Assembly: GCA_030834895.1 (NCBI GenBank) | Contig: JAUQXA010000070.1 | Location: 1-64,000, forward strand | From: Anaerolineales bacterium | GTDB taxonomy: Bacteria > Chloroflexota > Anaerolineae > Anaerolineales > Villigracilaceae | Length of the DNA: 64,000 bases | Direction: 5' to 3' | In this document: piece after piece, positions 30,493 through 35,877 of the stretch | Numbering within the stretch: the stretch's first letter is position 1 | Layout of the letters: each line of letters opens with the position of its first letter | Translations under genes and position numbers: made by a program | Notes under the pieces: generated by a model | Database searches by the model: none | Seen by the model: only the letters and a program-made list of their open reading frames with translations | Told to the model about the DNA's origin: nothing

Positions 30493-31413
30493 TCAATCGA
30501 GTTCCAATATTCTCCCAATGGCTGGGGCAATTCCTGTCAGGTCGTGGATGTCTTTTTGGAATTCACGACGAAGGGATTTGTCGCCGAAGAATAGCAGGGG
30601 TACGTCAGCGGCGGTGTGACGGCGGGTGGAGAGGTCTTCCATGTTGCCATGGTCGGAGGTAAGCAGGACGATGCCTTCCCCATGTTGCCAGTTTTCCAGC
30701 AGACCTTTCAGCACGCTGTCGAAATTTTCCAGTTGTTGAATGGCTGAATCCATATCTTGCTTGTGACCCGCGTAATCGCTTGCCCAATATTCAAAAAGGG
30801 AGAAATCATATTGACTGGCAATCTCTGCCAGTCTTTGCCCCGCTTCTTCTGGCTCATAAACTGGCGCATCGCGCAGGTGCAGGAAGTCATGCCAACCCTG
30901 GCCCGTGAAATCGGCGGCGAGAGCGTTGCCAGAATAGTAATCATCTTTGGTGAAAAGGGGCAACCCTGCATTGGTGAATGCCAGTGGAATGGACGAGTAA
31001 ATGTGCTTGCCCGAGTTGATTCCCGCGAAATAGCGCGGCGGATAGGCGCTTAGCAGGGCGGTTTTTTTACCAGCCCCGACCGTCTTTGAGAAGACCGTCT
31101 TCCCATTGAGATATTTCGCCACATCGGGATTTGGCTTGGGACCGTAATGATAGCCCAATTCAGCGGGAACGTTGATTCCAGTCAGTAGGACAGCCTGACC
31201 CGTTGCGGATTGCGGCAAACCGTCCACGCCGAGATTGGGGTCGATGGAGAGCAGTGTAGCAAGGTCACCTTCAAAAGGCGCGTTCTCGCGAACGAGAGTC
31301 CGCCCGACGAGGAGGGATCGCAGGTACGGCATGTCGGCGCGCGCGAAGGGATTGATCTCAGGGTTGTTGTCGCCGAGTCCGATGCCGTCGAGGAAGAGGA
31401 AGAGGATTTTCAA
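30493..31413 (-). CDS. Alkaline-phosphatase-superfamily metalloenzyme (iPGM-like)
   Basis: A 306-residue protein with metal ligands of the phosphoglycerate-mutase/phosphatase superfamily: FLFLDGIGLGD, the Thr/Ser nucleophile in QSATGQ, EYWASDYAGHKQD, and TSDHGNMEDLSTRRHT. It is shorter than cofactor-independent PGM (about 510) and lacks its second domain, so the substrate is uncertain; phosphonate or phosphodiester hydrolysis are options. Confidence 0.82.
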   Translation of the reverse strand: MKILFLFLDGIGLGDNNPEINPFARADMPYLRSLLVGRTLVRENAPFEGDLATLLSIDPNLGVDGLPQSATGQAVLLTGINVPAELGYHYGPKPNPDVAKYLNGKTVFSKTVGAGKKTALLSAYPPRYFAGINSGKHIYSSIPLAFTNAGLPLFTKDDYYSGNALAADFTGQGWHDFLHLRDAPVYEPEEAGQRLAEIASQYDFSLFEYWASDYAGHKQDMDSAIQQLENFDSVLKGLLENWQHGEGIVLLTSDHGNMEDLSTRRHTAADVPLLFFGDKSLRREFQKDIHDLTGIAPAIGRILELD

Positions 31414-31478: not shown

Positions 31479-31510
31479 GTTTACCTGTCTACTTGTTTAC
31501 CTGTGTACCT
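31479..31510. repeat. Octamer array, GTTTACCT family
   Basis: Four 8-bp units: GTTTACCT, GTCTACTT, GTTTACCT, GTGTACCT. It overlaps the 3' end of the methyltransferase gene and supplies its last residues and stop. A related word is at 36478-36490. Confidence 0.8.
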
Positions 31511-32097
31511 TTCTGATACAAAAACCACGCGGAGGGACGTTCGCGTTTGTCGAAGCCTTTGCGTTGGGAGAGGAGGGTCAAGCCGTGGGCCGAGATTCGA
31601 CTCAGGTCAGCGGGACCAATTCGAGGCGCGGATGAATCAACAGCTTGGGGGAGGAATCCGTACATTAACCAGAATCCGCCTGGGGCGAGGATTCGATCCA
31701 GTTGAGTCAAATAATCCACCTTGTTTGGGATGCCATGGAAACAACCGATGTCGAGGACGAGGTCGAATTTCCTGCTGATATTTTTCATGCGCGTGGCGTC
31801 GTCGGTGAAGAGTTCTGCCCGGATGCCCGCTTGTTTGATTTTGCGCTTGGCGATTTGGATGGCGCGGGAAGCGAAGTCAAACCCCGTGACCTGCCAGCCC
31901 GCTTTGGCGAGGGTGATGACGTTTGTACCTGTGCCGCAGCCAATGTCGAGGGCGCGACCTGCGGGGTGGGCTTGGATGAATTCGACGACTTCGGGCGGGG
32001 TGATGCCGCTGTCCCAGGGCGGGGAGCCAAAATAGAGCAGGTCGAATTGCAGGCGGCGCAAAACGTCCCGAAGGTTGAATTGCCACAAGTATGTCAT
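31489..32097 (-). CDS. SAM-dependent methyltransferase
   Basis: A 202-residue class I methyltransferase: motif I LDIGCGTGTNVITLA, acidic residue in VTGFDFASRA, motif IV-like LVLDIGCFHGIP and LAPGGFWLMY. Substrate unknown; the family includes thiopurine/tellurite-type enzymes. The last residues come from a repeat. The start codon lies in the loop of a 17-bp inverted repeat shared with the end of the upstream gene. Confidence 0.82.
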   Translation of the reverse strand: MTYLWQFNLRDVLRRLQFDLLYFGSPPWDSGITPPEVVEFIQAHPAGRALDIGCGTGTNVITLAKAGWQVTGFDFASRAIQIAKRKIKQAGIRAELFTDDATRMKNISRKFDLVLDIGCFHGIPNKVDYLTQLDRILAPGGFWLMYGFLPQAVDSSAPRIGPADLSRISAHGLTLLSQRKGFDKRERPSAWFLYQKGTQVNK

Positions 32098-32121
32098 ATT
32101 TCGAAACCTTCGGGACGTTTT
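32060..32121 (-). promoter_or_regulatory. 17-bp inverted repeat enclosing the methyltransferase start codon
   Basis: AAAACGTCCCGAAGGTT (32060-32076) and its exact complement (32105-32121) are separated by 28 bases holding ATG 32097. On the minus strand it begins one base inside the stop codon of the Sec-thioredoxin gene. It could be that gene's terminator, or a hairpin controlling translation of the methyltransferase; a T-rich end follows the second arm only weakly. Confidence 0.6.
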
Positions 32122-32620
32122 ATTTCAACGAGTCGCGGACCAGTTGCGGATCGAACACACCAACGGTGCGCCAGAGTTCATTGCCCTGCGCGTCGAAGAA
32201 GACGAAGGTCGGCGTGAATTCGAAGCCATAGGCGGCGGCGAGCTCCCTGCCGACAGTTTCCTGGATATTCAGGCGGATGATGTGAATCGGCTTGCCGATT
32301 GTGGTGCTGCTATTCAGTTCCTGTTCGAGCCTGTCAACGGCAGGCTTCAATTGGGTGCAGGTAATTCAGTAGGGGGATTGGAATTCGAGCAGGACGGGCG
32401 TACCAGCGCCGATGAGGGATTGCACCTTTTTGGCGTCGTCCATCAGCGGGGTCTGGACAGGATGCAGGATGACCCAGGAGACGATCAGCGCGGCGACGAC
32501 GACCCCGAAGGCAAGGAAGTCGTTCCATTTTGGCTTGTTGGAGAGCAGGAAAAATCCCGCCGCCACCCCCAGCCCGATTGCCACAAGAAGGAAGGAGTAT
32601 TCACGGATAAATAAAATCAC
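32120..32620 (-). CDS. Thioredoxin-fold membrane protein with in-frame TGA: probable selenoprotein (UxxC)
   Basis: Two open frames on the minus strand (32620-32369 and 32365-32120) are in the same phase and separated by a single TGA at 32366-32368. Joined, they give one 166-residue protein: two membrane helices (about 9-27, 35-54), then a thioredoxin domain with FQSPY-U-ITC-TQLKPAVD at the redox site and cis-Pro in FTPTFVFF. The TGA is exactly at the first Cys of CxxC, the usual place of selenocysteine. 25 bases after it an AGCCUG/CAGGCU stem with loop CCGUUGA fits a bacterial SECIS. GTG 32620 follows AGAGG; GTG 32626 is an alternative. TGA serves as stop elsewhere (actD, DUF4395). A nonsense mutation is the alternative. 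Confidence 0.75.
32327..32347 (-). promoter_or_regulatory. Candidate bacterial SECIS hairpin
   Basis: Minus-strand stem AGCCTG (32341-32346) with CAGGCT (32328-32333), 7-base loop CCGTTGA, beginning about 19 bases and looping 25 bases 3' of the TGA. Pairing of the first loop C with the sixth-position G would give a smaller loop with G at its second position. Confidence 0.5.
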
Positions 32621-32817
32621 AGACACCTCTATTTGTTTGCTCTCGGCGGCGGGGCCGCCGCCGGGGACGGCGGCTTGAGCGTTTTATTGAATGTCATGTC
32701 ATATTGTGACGGTTCACACTTTGACAATTCAAATGAGTTCTTTTACAATCGAACGACTTGCCCCCATGGGGCGGTTGGAATTATTTAAATACATCCCATG
32801 TAAGGAAGGTTGTTTCC

Positions 32818-34899
32818 ATGAAAGAGTATACCACCGAGTTTCTTCGCAACATTGCGCTGGTTTCGCACGGGGGCGCAGGCAAGACGATGATGGCTGAGTC
32901 GTTTTTGCATGCAACAAAGGCGACCACCCGCCTCGGCAAGATCGAGGATGGGACGACGGCATCGGACTACGACGACGAGGAACAGCGCCGCAAAATTTCG
33001 ATTTACACGAGTGTTCTCCCCATCGAGTATCGCGATCACAAAATAAACGTTCTGGACGCGCCAGGCTACACTGATTTTGTGGGTGAAATTGTCTCCGCCC
33101 TGAGTGCCGCCGATGGCGCGGTTGTTTTGGTGGATGCCGTTTCGGGCATCGAAGTCGGCACCGAAATTGCATGGCGCTATGTGGAGCAGTTCAAACTGCC
33201 GCGCTTTTTCGTCATCAACAAGATGGACCGCGACAACGCCAACTTCGAGCAGACCTATGCCGCCATCGAGGAGTTTGTGAAGGCATACGGCAAGCGCGCA
33301 GTCAAAGTCCAGCTGCCGATTGGTGAGAAGGCGGGCTTTAAGGGTGTGGTGGATGTCATCGGCATGAAAGCCTATATGGGTGACGGCAGCGCAGCTTCGG
33401 AAATTCCTGCTGACTTGAAGGATGCGGTCGAAGAGGCACGCTTCCAGTTGGTGGAAGCCGCGGCGGAAGGCGACGATGAGTTGATGGAAAAATACCTCGA
33501 AAACGGTTCCCTAACCGACGAGGAAATGGTGCGCGGACTCAAGGCTGTTGTCCACTCTGCGAACTTCATCCCCGTATTCTGCGCCGCTGGTGGGCATGAG
33601 ATCGGCACCCTGCCTTTGCTCAACGCCATTATTGACCTGATACCCTCCCCGTTGAACGCAGTCAAGCGCGTAGCACAGGGCAAGAATGGCGAAGAAGTCT
33701 TGAAACCCGCCGACACCGAGCCTTTGGCTGCCTACGTCTGGAAGACCACCGCCGACCCATTCGTCGGCAGAATGACCTACTTCCGCGTGTTCTCTGGCTC
33801 CATCCAGGCGGACGCTCACATGTGGAACCAGAACAAGGGCGCGGATGAACGCGTCTCAGGTTTGCACTTCCAGCGCGGCAAGGAAGCGATTGCGGCGAAG
33901 GTTGTCCACGCGGGCGACATTGCCTCCGTCTCCAAATTGAACGTCACCGCGACTGGCGACACTTTCTGTGACAAGGCTCACCCGCTTACAATCGAGAAAC
34001 CGAAATTTCCCGCCGCTCTGTATCGTGTGGCAGTCACCCCCAAAAGTCAGGCAGACGCGGCGAAGATCACCCCGACCCTCACCCGTCTGTGCGAAGAGGA
34101 TATGACCCTGATCTGGCAGAACGACCCCATCACACATGAAACGGTTTTGCAGGGTATGGGCGACCAGCACATCGACGTGGCGCTGCATCGCGCACAGGTC
34201 AAATTCCAGGTTGGATTCACCACTCACGAACCGCGCGTTCCATATCGCGAAGGCATCACGCGCAAAGCCAGCGCCCAGTATCGTCACAAGAAGCAAAGCG
34301 GCGGCGCGGGTCAATTCGGCGAAGTGCATCTCCGCATCGAACCGTTGCCCACAGCAGACTTTGAATTTACCGATGAACTCGTAGGCATGAACCTGTCGAA
34401 ATCCTATCTGCCCCCCATTGAAAAAGGCATTAAGGCAACGATGGAACGCGGCGCGTTTGCAGGTTACCCGATGAGCAACGTAAAAGTCATCGTCTATGAC
34501 GGCAAGGAACACGAAGTGGATTCCAAGCCTGTGGCGTTCGAAATTGCAGGACGCGAGGCGTTCAAACTCGCCGTGCAGGATGCGGGTCCCGTTTTATTCG
34601 AGCCGATCATGACCATTCGAGTCACCGTCCCCGATGCGAACATGGGCGACGTGATGAGCGACCTCAACACTCGCCGCGGACGCGTGCAGGGAACCGACTC
34701 CGAACATGGCAACACGGTCATCGTGGCTCACGTGCCGATGGCTGAACTCCTGCGCTACACCACCCAACTCCGCTCCATCACGGGCGGACGCGGATACTTT
34801 ACCATGGAATTCGACCACTACGACACAGTCCCTGCCCACATCATGGGTCCGATCATCGAAGCCCACAAGAAGGAAATGGAAGCGAAGAAGGACGAATAA
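32818..34899 (+). CDS. EF-G-like translational GTPase (FusA paralogue)
   Basis: A 693-residue protein with all EF-G domains. The P-loop is SHGGAGKT (16-23) rather than AHIDAGKT of canonical EF-G, switch II DAPGYTDF, and NKMDRDN. GGxG-type P-loops mark the EF-G-like group (EF-G2-type) found beside the main EF-G in many bacteria; a role in recycling or stress translation is only inferred. ATG 32818 follows AAGGAAGG; the longer frame upstream has no site. A GC-rich inverted repeat (32643-32680) lies in the divergent upstream region. Confidence 0.88.
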   Translation: MKEYTTEFLRNIALVSHGGAGKTMMAESFLHATKATTRLGKIEDGTTASDYDDEEQRRKISIYTSVLPIEYRDHKINVLDAPGYTDFVGEIVSALSAADGAVVLVDAVSGIEVGTEIAWRYVEQFKLPRFFVINKMDRDNANFEQTYAAIEEFVKAYGKRAVKVQLPIGEKAGFKGVVDVIGMKAYMGDGSAASEIPADLKDAVEEARFQLVEAAAEGDDELMEKYLENGSLTDEEMVRGLKAVVHSANFIPVFCAAGGHEIGTLPLLNAIIDLIPSPLNAVKRVAQGKNGEEVLKPADTEPLAAYVWKTTADPFVGRMTYFRVFSGSIQADAHMWNQNKGADERVSGLHFQRGKEAIAAKVVHAGDIASVSKLNVTATGDTFCDKAHPLTIEKPKFPAALYRVAVTPKSQADAAKITPTLTRLCEEDMTLIWQNDPITHETVLQGMGDQHIDVALHRAQVKFQVGFTTHEPRVPYREGITRKASAQYRHKKQSGGAGQFGEVHLRIEPLPTADFEFTDELVGMNLSKSYLPPIEKGIKATMERGAFAGYPMSNVKVIVYDGKEHEVDSKPVAFEIAGREAFKLAVQDAGPVLFEPIMTIRVTVPDANMGDVMSDLNTRRGRVQGTDSEHGNTVIVAHVPMAELLRYTTQLRSITGGRGYFTMEFDHYDTVPAHIMGPIIEAHKKEMEAKKDE

Positions 34900-34976: not shown

Positions 34977-35816
34977 TTATTTCGGCGAGAACAGAATATC
35001 CTCCACACGGGTTTTCATTCTCAGTCGCCTGCCCTCGAAGGTCATCAGGTCGGCAAGGGACTTCTTCTTCGTGCCATCCCAAAGTACGAGATTGTCCCTC
35101 TGCTTCTTCATGTATTCTTCCAGTTTGCCGAAATCCGAATAATTATCATAGAATCCCACCAGGCGGCGGAAGAGTTTGGGCATGATCAAATTGTCCTCTT
35201 GCAGGGTGCGGATGTCGAGCAGTGTGAAATCGGATGTGCGGTCGATGGACCAGATTCCGCGTTTGGTTGCCCGTGCCCGGGTCACAACTGCGCGGATTTT
35301 TTCCGCAAAGACTCGGTCCGTGGTGGTGTAAAACGTCGGATAGACCAAGCCTTCGCGCGCCAGTTGGAAGTTGATTGAATCTTCGACGGGGAGTTGGCTT
35401 GAATCCATCACCGCGCCATCCGTCAGTTTGACATCCTTCGGGAAGACATAACTGACTGGACGCCCGAAGCGGTCCACTGAACCCGAGGCGATGAATCCCG
35501 CCTTGCCGTCGTTGGCATCCACCACCTGGGTCAGTCCCAGGCTGTAGATGACGGTGTCGATCCGCAGCATTTCAAGCATGGCTTCAAGCGCCGCCAACGC
35601 AAAGGCGCGCGGCTGGTGATAGCCTTCGTAATGGGTCTCCATTGCATCAATTGCTTCGACGCGCAGTTGCTTCTTCTTTGTGGCTTTGACCACTACAGTT
35701 TCCCAGGTGAAAAAATCCCAATTTGCCTGGTTCGTTGCCTGAAAGCGGATCGAATCCCCGTCGGGCTGAAAGCCTTTGATATGAAACGTACCTGCGATCA
35801 CTTTATATTGCGCCAT
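34977..35816 (-). CDS. Staphylococcal-nuclease-like (SNase fold) protein
   Basis: A 279-residue cytoplasmic protein. IRFQATN, then QLRVEAIDAMETHYEG...HQPRAFALAALEAM matches the SNase core (R-I-x-G-I-D-A-P-E-T), with Asp and Glu kept, but the canonical Pro is Met. A second part (170-279) has RVFAEKIRAVVTRARATKRGIWS, similar to SNase C-terminal Arg-containing strands. Start at ATG 35816 with AAAGGAGG upstream. A nuclease or nucleic-acid-binding role is likely but not certain. Confidence 0.7.
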   Translation of the reverse strand: MAQYKVIAGTFHIKGFQPDGDSIRFQATNQANWDFFTWETVVVKATKKKQLRVEAIDAMETHYEGYHQPRAFALAALEAMLEMLRIDTVIYSLGLTQVVDANDGKAGFIASGSVDRFGRPVSYVFPKDVKLTDGAVMDSSQLPVEDSINFQLAREGLVYPTFYTTTDRVFAEKIRAVVTRARATKRGIWSIDRTSDFTLLDIRTLQEDNLIMPKLFRRLVGFYDNYSDFGKLEEYMKKQRDNLVLWDGTKKKSLADLMTFEGRRLRMKTRVEDILFSPK

Positions 35817-35877
35817 GGCTGCCTCCTTTGGTAAGTCTATTATAGGAGTTTTTGACGTAAAAGCAAACATTTGCTCA

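Follow-up and report, generated by a model that had tools for sequence, protein, structure and literature searches.

Thioredoxin-like proteins with selenocysteine (Sec) in the active site are already known: passages of a recent review list both a Sec-containing thioredoxin (PF00085) and a Sec-containing thiol:disulfide interchange protein (PF13098), each with a UxxC motif, the latter represented by WP_011366075.1 in its Table 1 (PMC13188914). The string 'Chloroflex' is absent from those passages of the review that were searched. For the Chloroflexi, three selenoproteins of three families are counted in the part of an earlier survey that we consulted (PMC1794560), and the Sec proteins named in the passages seen of another paper are formate dehydrogenases (PMC5736913).

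The window, by which we mean the whole stretch of 64,000 nucleotides analysed here, contains on its minus strand a gene that runs from a GTG at 32626 to a TAA at 32120-32122, with an in-frame TGA as codon 87 (32366-32368). The ORF listing gives two ORFs in one phase, 32366-32626 and 32120-32350, with this TGA as sole interruption, and a standard-code call cuts the gene there, leaving a stub of 86 residues and a downstream fragment without its head. Translation across the TGA gives a product of 168 residues containing the stretch LLEFQSPYUITCTQLKPAVD. From comparison of sequences, we consider it very probable (about 0.95) that 32120-32626 is a genuine selenoprotein gene in which TGA would encode Sec at the active site. 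The features of the locus are as follows; neighbours were taken as the longest non-overlapping ORFs on stretches that differed in length and were in part short, so that their counts are lower bounds.

30493-31413, minus strand: metalloenzyme-superfamily protein (PF01676), phosphoglycerate-mutase-like; neighbour in 39 of 42 loci
31489-32097, minus strand: SAM-dependent methyltransferase (PF13649), 22 nt downstream; neighbour in 33 of 42 loci
32120-32626, minus strand: probable selenoprotein gene, Sec as residue 87 of 168 (read-through translation, orthologues among 201 genomes, Pfam)
32210-32212, minus strand: codon 139, cis-Pro position (TPTF) of the thioredoxin fold, invariant in 50 of 50 aligned members
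32328-32346, minus strand: SECIS-like hairpin, nucleotides 20-38 after the TGA (pair conservation, compensatory changes)
32357-32359, minus strand: codon 90, second Cys of UxxC, Cys in 106 of 106 distinct loci
32366-32368, minus strand: codon 87, TGA, probably read as Sec at the first position of UxxC (106 distinct orthologous loci)
32465-32527, minus strand: helix 2, residues 34-54, taken as a membrane helix (AlphaFold2)
32540-32620, minus strand: helix 1, residues 3-29, taken as a membrane helix (AlphaFold2; hydrophobic by eye)
32818-34899, plus strand: elongation factor G (EF-G) paralogue, divergent (NF009381, 875.8 bits, above cut-off); neighbour in 41 of 42 loci

The methyltransferase gene is possibly co-transcribed with the selenoprotein gene. 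It is a neighbour at 29 of the 33 loci with the Sec form and at 4 of the 9 with the Cys form, a difference that may be chance, as the five Cys loci without it fall in only two clades. A 297-residue protein encoded at 34977-35870, which matches nothing in Pfam or NCBIfam at E 1e-5, is found near the locus in 9 of the 42 loci.

Several of these features had been proposed in an earlier note on this DNA, and the analysis bears them out: the two same-phase ORFs split only by the TGA, with SPY-U-ITC-TQLKP read across it, lie on the minus strand; the two membrane helices placed before the domain correspond to the predicted helices 3-29 and 34-54; and the later cis-Pro is P139 in TPTF. TGA is also an ordinary stop elsewhere, as the note held: among four nearby genes whose stops were checked, 30493-31413 ends in TGA and the other three in TAA or TAG.

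In Pfam, the window protein matches PF13098 at 37.6 bits (gathering cut-off 27 bits), with the UxxC present, and PF00085 at 33.9 bits, also above cut-off; PF13098 is matched by 48 of 50 members at E up to 0.01. Compared at the level of the domain alone, it shares with the Sec-containing thiol:disulfide interchange protein both PF13098 and a UxxC with Sec first, but the Chloroflexota lineage carries a pair of helices at the N terminus and occupies a conserved locus next to an EF-G gene. With the Sec-containing thioredoxin it has in common PF00085, the thioredoxin fold and Sec at the first active-site position. However, the usual thioredoxin active-site motif is WCGPC, whereas the present lineage has SPYUxxC and the two additional N-terminal helices, and against the thioredoxin equivalog TIGR01068 the window protein reaches only 35 of the 96.8 bits of the cut-off. 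Its match to TsoB (NF045694), a rhodanese/DsbD fusion-like selenoprotein, covers the C-terminal stretch only and scores 19.4 bits against a cut-off of 805; with E limited to 1, 45 of 50 members show this weak C-terminal match, the best of them at E 1.4e-8. The window protein exceeds no NCBIfam cut-off, and TsoA, SaoT, HUIPC-motif and other curated thioredoxin-like selenoprotein models are absent from the 17 families that it matches at E up to 1; for the remaining 49, the families listed are 25 of the 74 matched, without cut-offs.

Full-text literature searches returned no title or abstract start that reports this lineage, and within the literature searched a membrane-anchored Chloroflexota lineage of this kind appears unreported. 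The 'probable new selenoprotein' of the earlier note can accordingly be kept as a probable selenoprotein, while its newness is limited to the lineage, the UxxC thioredoxin-like kind being already listed in the passages seen of the review (PMC13188914).

Predicted fold and membrane topology

The AlphaFold2 model (mean pLDDT 76.2, pTM 0.58) consists of two helices followed by a thioredoxin fold, and a Foldseek comparison with the PDB gives thioredoxins as its best matches (E down to 1.7e-6, TM-score about 0.7 by target). Positive charge is concentrated between the helices: mean K+R is 2.5 in the inter-helix loop, compared with 1.12 after helix 2 and 0.24 before helix 1, this last value being possibly too low, as the rows are trimmed at the N terminus. 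Because the loop carries most of the positive charge, it would lie inside and the thioredoxin domain outside, and we lean slightly towards an outward-facing reductase. The protein could instead be a selenoprotein with a cytoplasmic thioredoxin domain, in essence an ordinary tethered thioredoxin. This would agree with the best structural matches listed, which are mostly ordinary thioredoxins, and the charge bias is judged from K+R counts alone on trimmed rows; yet the basic loop points the other way, and we regard a cytoplasmic domain as unlikely, if well short of negligible.

As an outward-facing reductase, the product of 168 residues would combine two membrane helices with a thioredoxin domain whose active site is predicted to be Sec87-Ile-Thr-Cys90. 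Sec87 would attack a disulfide on the outer face of the membrane and Cys90 would resolve the intermediate. The active site might then be re-reduced by a CcdA/DsbD-type protein, for which the genome offers six DsbD_TM matches as possible electron donors.

Codon 87 across orthologues

The gene is widespread in the 201 genomes searched (its own and those of relatives), where most of the full-length matches listed have exactly one internal TGA, and a second search added named Chloroflexota MAGs that carry it. The orthologue set consists of the full-length, orthologue-grade matches among those listed; codon 87 was mapped in 132 rows, and 106 distinct loci remained after 26 same-locus copies were dropped. 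Partial rows (G044:C355, G030:C114, G075:C115, G054:C46 and G198:C316) were left out, as were weaker matches, beyond about E 1e-11; among those listed, almost every one is limited to the thioredoxin domain. Fifty-one weak matches of the second search (L068-L118) are distant thioredoxin domains, and the 50 that were mapped all have TGC or TGT.

Codon 87 is TGA at 80 of the 106 loci, TGC at 18 and TGT at 8, and no other codon occurs; the second residue of the motif is always Cys. This restriction of the aligned codon to TGA, TGC and TGT excludes chance, and sequencing error is untenable because the same TGA is present in dozens of other genomes. Homologues with Cys at this position, which the earlier note had suggested looking for, are thus the only alternative to the TGA form, and where the note had asked whether homologues end at the TGA, they continue past it. 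The protein also proved well preserved on both sides of the TGA, unlike a decayed gene, as had been claimed: median dN/dS is 0.183 before the TGA and 0.148 after it, with a largest value after it of 0.378 (262 close, non-independent pairs), and purifying selection acts after the TGA as it does before.

Conservation on both sides would equally be expected if the TGA were read by a near-cognate tRNA or had been reassigned, with Trp, Gly or Cys inserted and no selenium involved. However, 50 of the same 80 TGA-bearing genes also terminate at TGA, so that TGA is not reassigned; the alternative residue at the other 26 loci is always Cys; and the genome holds the Sec set, while the hairpin described below co-evolves with the codon. 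We therefore consider reading without selenium very improbable. Still less credible is a decaying gene whose TGA is simply a nonsense mutation or an artefact of sequencing, a reading that the appearance of the two halves as separate standard-code ORFs might suggest, but that is at odds with a TGA at 80 of 106 distinct loci, exclusively Cys codons at the rest, and purifying selection downstream. Scarcely worth entertaining, too, is a functional 86-residue two-helix protein followed by a separately started small thioredoxin: a TTG 16 nt past the TGA does open the ORF 32120-32350, but this ORF begins beyond the UxxC and the first strand (residues 78-83) and so has no active site, and at this locus the Cys-form orthologues have one continuous open frame across the TGA point.

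A selenoprotein gene with an exchangeable Sec codon is thus the reading that we retain. When the 106 proteins are placed on a tree built with residue 87 masked, 11 changes of state are needed, at least nine of them on supported branches, which indicates that the family has swapped selenium and sulphur repeatedly. The Cys-form orthologues have the same domain with CxxC for UxxC, and all nine Cys-form loci in the neighbour table keep the same EF-G neighbour, which marks the locus as conserved and argues that Sec and Cys were exchanged in place. In the main tree, bootstrap support is unsettled, several end branches are long, and root and direction are unsure. Parsimony with a doubtful, non-monophyletic outgroup gives 15 changes at equal cost, mostly from Sec to Cys (4 gains, 11 losses), and 1 gain and 14 losses when gains are slightly dearer, but reverses to 15 gains and 5 losses when losses are twice as dear; since the outcome flips with the cost of loss, we make no claim on direction.

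The hairpin after the TGA

The earlier note had placed a hairpin at 32327-32347, at a SECIS-like distance from the TGA; we find it within that span, at 32328-32346 on the minus strand, as an eight-pair stem (32339-32346 with 32328-32335) closed by a GUU triloop (32336-32338). Seven of its eight pairs are standard and the eighth is C.A. Across the TGA loci, nucleotides 20-27 after the TGA pair with nucleotides 31-38, and the triloop begins with GU in all 80 (GTG in 42, GTT in 31, GTC in 7). Standard pairs fill 87.7% of the alignment cells in the TGA set; shuffles give 82.1%, and sliding the partner strand never more than 39.2%. The same positions of the Cys set are paired in 45.7% of cells, no more than in shuffles (45.1%). 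Compensatory changes among the TGA loci are concentrated mainly at two pairs, and are seen at alignment columns 27/37 (CG 58, UA 15, UG 3, GC 2) and 28/36 (GC 64, AU 13, GU 2). Third codon positions are constrained as well: nucleotide 27 is C in 80 of 80 TGA loci but in 8 of 26 Cys loci, and nucleotide 36 is G in 76 of 80 against 6 of 26.

Nine independent Sec/Cys contrasts on supported branches allow the hairpin to be followed along the tree. With at least seven of eight pairs taken as presence, on average 8.3 contrasts are concordant with codon 87 and 0.0 discordant (median p 0.008, range 0.004-0.031); with the mark lowered to at least six pairs, the averages are 7.7 and 0.0, and p ranges up to 0.07. 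Taken together, these patterns clearly indicate a conserved, co-varying hairpin that co-evolves with codon 87.

The 80 TGA loci contain 78 non-standard cells, 60 of which are C with A. At the inner pairs of nucleotides 23/35, 26/32 and 27/31 (columns 26/38, 29/35 and 30/34), all 46 non-standard cells are C.A, as if this were the sole mismatch tolerated in the inner stem.

Folding energy adds little. Mean z relative to synonymous shuffles is -0.83 for TGA and -0.50 for Cys genes over the 45 nt after the codon (p 0.09), -0.74 and -0.43 over 54 nt (p 0.18), and -0.51 and -0.41 over 63 nt (p 0.40), that is, slightly below the shuffles after the TGA and not clearly below the Cys genes. Because this signal is weak, the case for the hairpin rests on the pair counts and the third-position constraint. 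RNAalifold with default scoring gives no consensus pairs, including in a repeat on four stretches, whereas with ribosum scoring it recovers exactly the hairpin of nucleotides 20-38.

According to the review, bacterial SECIS elements have a loop of 3-9 nt whose first or second position is a G, lie 16-37 nt from the UGA and fold at -7.5 kcal/mol or below (PMC13188914). In our own coding of these rules, with one mismatch allowed, 45 of 80 TGA loci pass, as do 3 of 26 Cys loci. For the stretch in the window itself, the minimum-energy fold has six pairs and a 7-nt loop at -7.6 kcal/mol, just inside the limit of -7.5, with its spacing in range; the G of this loop, CCGUUGA, is third, outside the first two positions, and the stretch agrees with the loop-G rule only when the stem is extended past the C.A mismatch to include the C-G pair there.

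Selenium machinery and members outside the order

The selA, selB, selC and selD genes, whose absence the earlier note would have counted against a selenoprotein, are all present in the genome: SelA scores 441.8 bits, SelB 353.2, SelD 355.7 and tRNA-Sec 67.1, the last also called by ARAGORN as tRNA-SeC with anticodon TCA (UCA). We propose that SelB with Sec-tRNA(UCA) would bind the hairpin at nucleotides 20-38 downstream, so that the UGA would be read as selenocysteine rather than as stop, while without selenium termination would leave the 86-residue two-helix stub.

SelD of this genome (L199, G000:C34:16693-17625) itself has one internal TGA, in ACAGUASK, a UxxK site; UxxK is the SelD motif as given in the review, in the passages seen (PMC13188914). 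Among relatives, nearly all SelD genes in the matches listed also have one TGA. So do one of the two formate dehydrogenase matches of the genome and many of those listed in relatives. The idea that the present protein is the sole reason to keep the Sec machinery was dropped, since SelD and formate dehydrogenase also carry TGA.

Within the order, codon 87 and the machinery are not significantly associated: SelA is found in 71 of the 76 genomes with TGA and in 21 of the 25 with Cys (Fisher p 0.22). The five TGA-bearing genomes without SelA, assembled in 140 to 700 contigs, each have other Sec parts: G034 and G050 have SelB, tRNA-Sec and SelD; G067 has SelB and tRNA-Sec; G094, 60% complete, has a SelB match at E 3.2e-88; and G122 has SelD and a tRNA-Sec match of 48.8 bits, just above cut-off, its best SelB match (E 5.8e-49) falling below the cut-off as judged by the scale of the SelB listing.

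Further members came from a profile search that covered 400 genomes of the phylum. Those read outside the order comprise 12 loci (L219-L230) and 20 further regions, which cover the matches listed down to E 1.6e-21. They give 38 rows, 28 with TGA and 10 with Cys; two of the Cys rows are ordinary CGPC thioredoxins on the same stretches. The 28 TGA rows divide into 21 UxxC and 7 UxxS. Four genomes have tandem pairs of Sec type, UxxC then UxxS (L236, L238, L239 and L241, in G230, G270, G484 and G306), with UAGC in the first copy and UAKS, UASS, UASS or UARS in the second, and three further copies have UGAS (L234, L240, L243). In the same hairpin register, the second tandem copies pair at 5 of 8 positions and the UGAS copies at 8 of 8. 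One might imagine that in this one Chloroflexota branch the adjacent UxxC and UxxS products form a selenium-to-selenium relay on the outer side of the membrane, in which the UxxS partner would be without a resolving Cys in its own motif, but we hold this to be a long shot. Within the f15 family, three genomes (G189, G181 and G159) have two TGA paralogues each (L181/L188, L186/L194 and L198/L189, respectively). No Sec member was found outside Chloroflexota among the regions read, in a search with few peptide patterns, suited to close relatives only.

With these results, the thioredoxin-like selenoproteins would gain a lineage that is widespread, apparently anchored in the membrane and common to many Chloroflexota. 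Where the Sec machinery is retained within the order, this protein may be a further client of it; in Anaerolinea thermophila UNI-1, for instance, a Sec elongation factor is encoded and no dehydrogenase is annotated with Sec, according to the passages seen of PMC4959059. Finally, as Sec and Cys forms occupy the same locus, with at least nine supported exchanges and the hairpin following in 8.3 of nine contrasts on average, they offer natural matched pairs for the long-standing question of what Sec gives over Cys.
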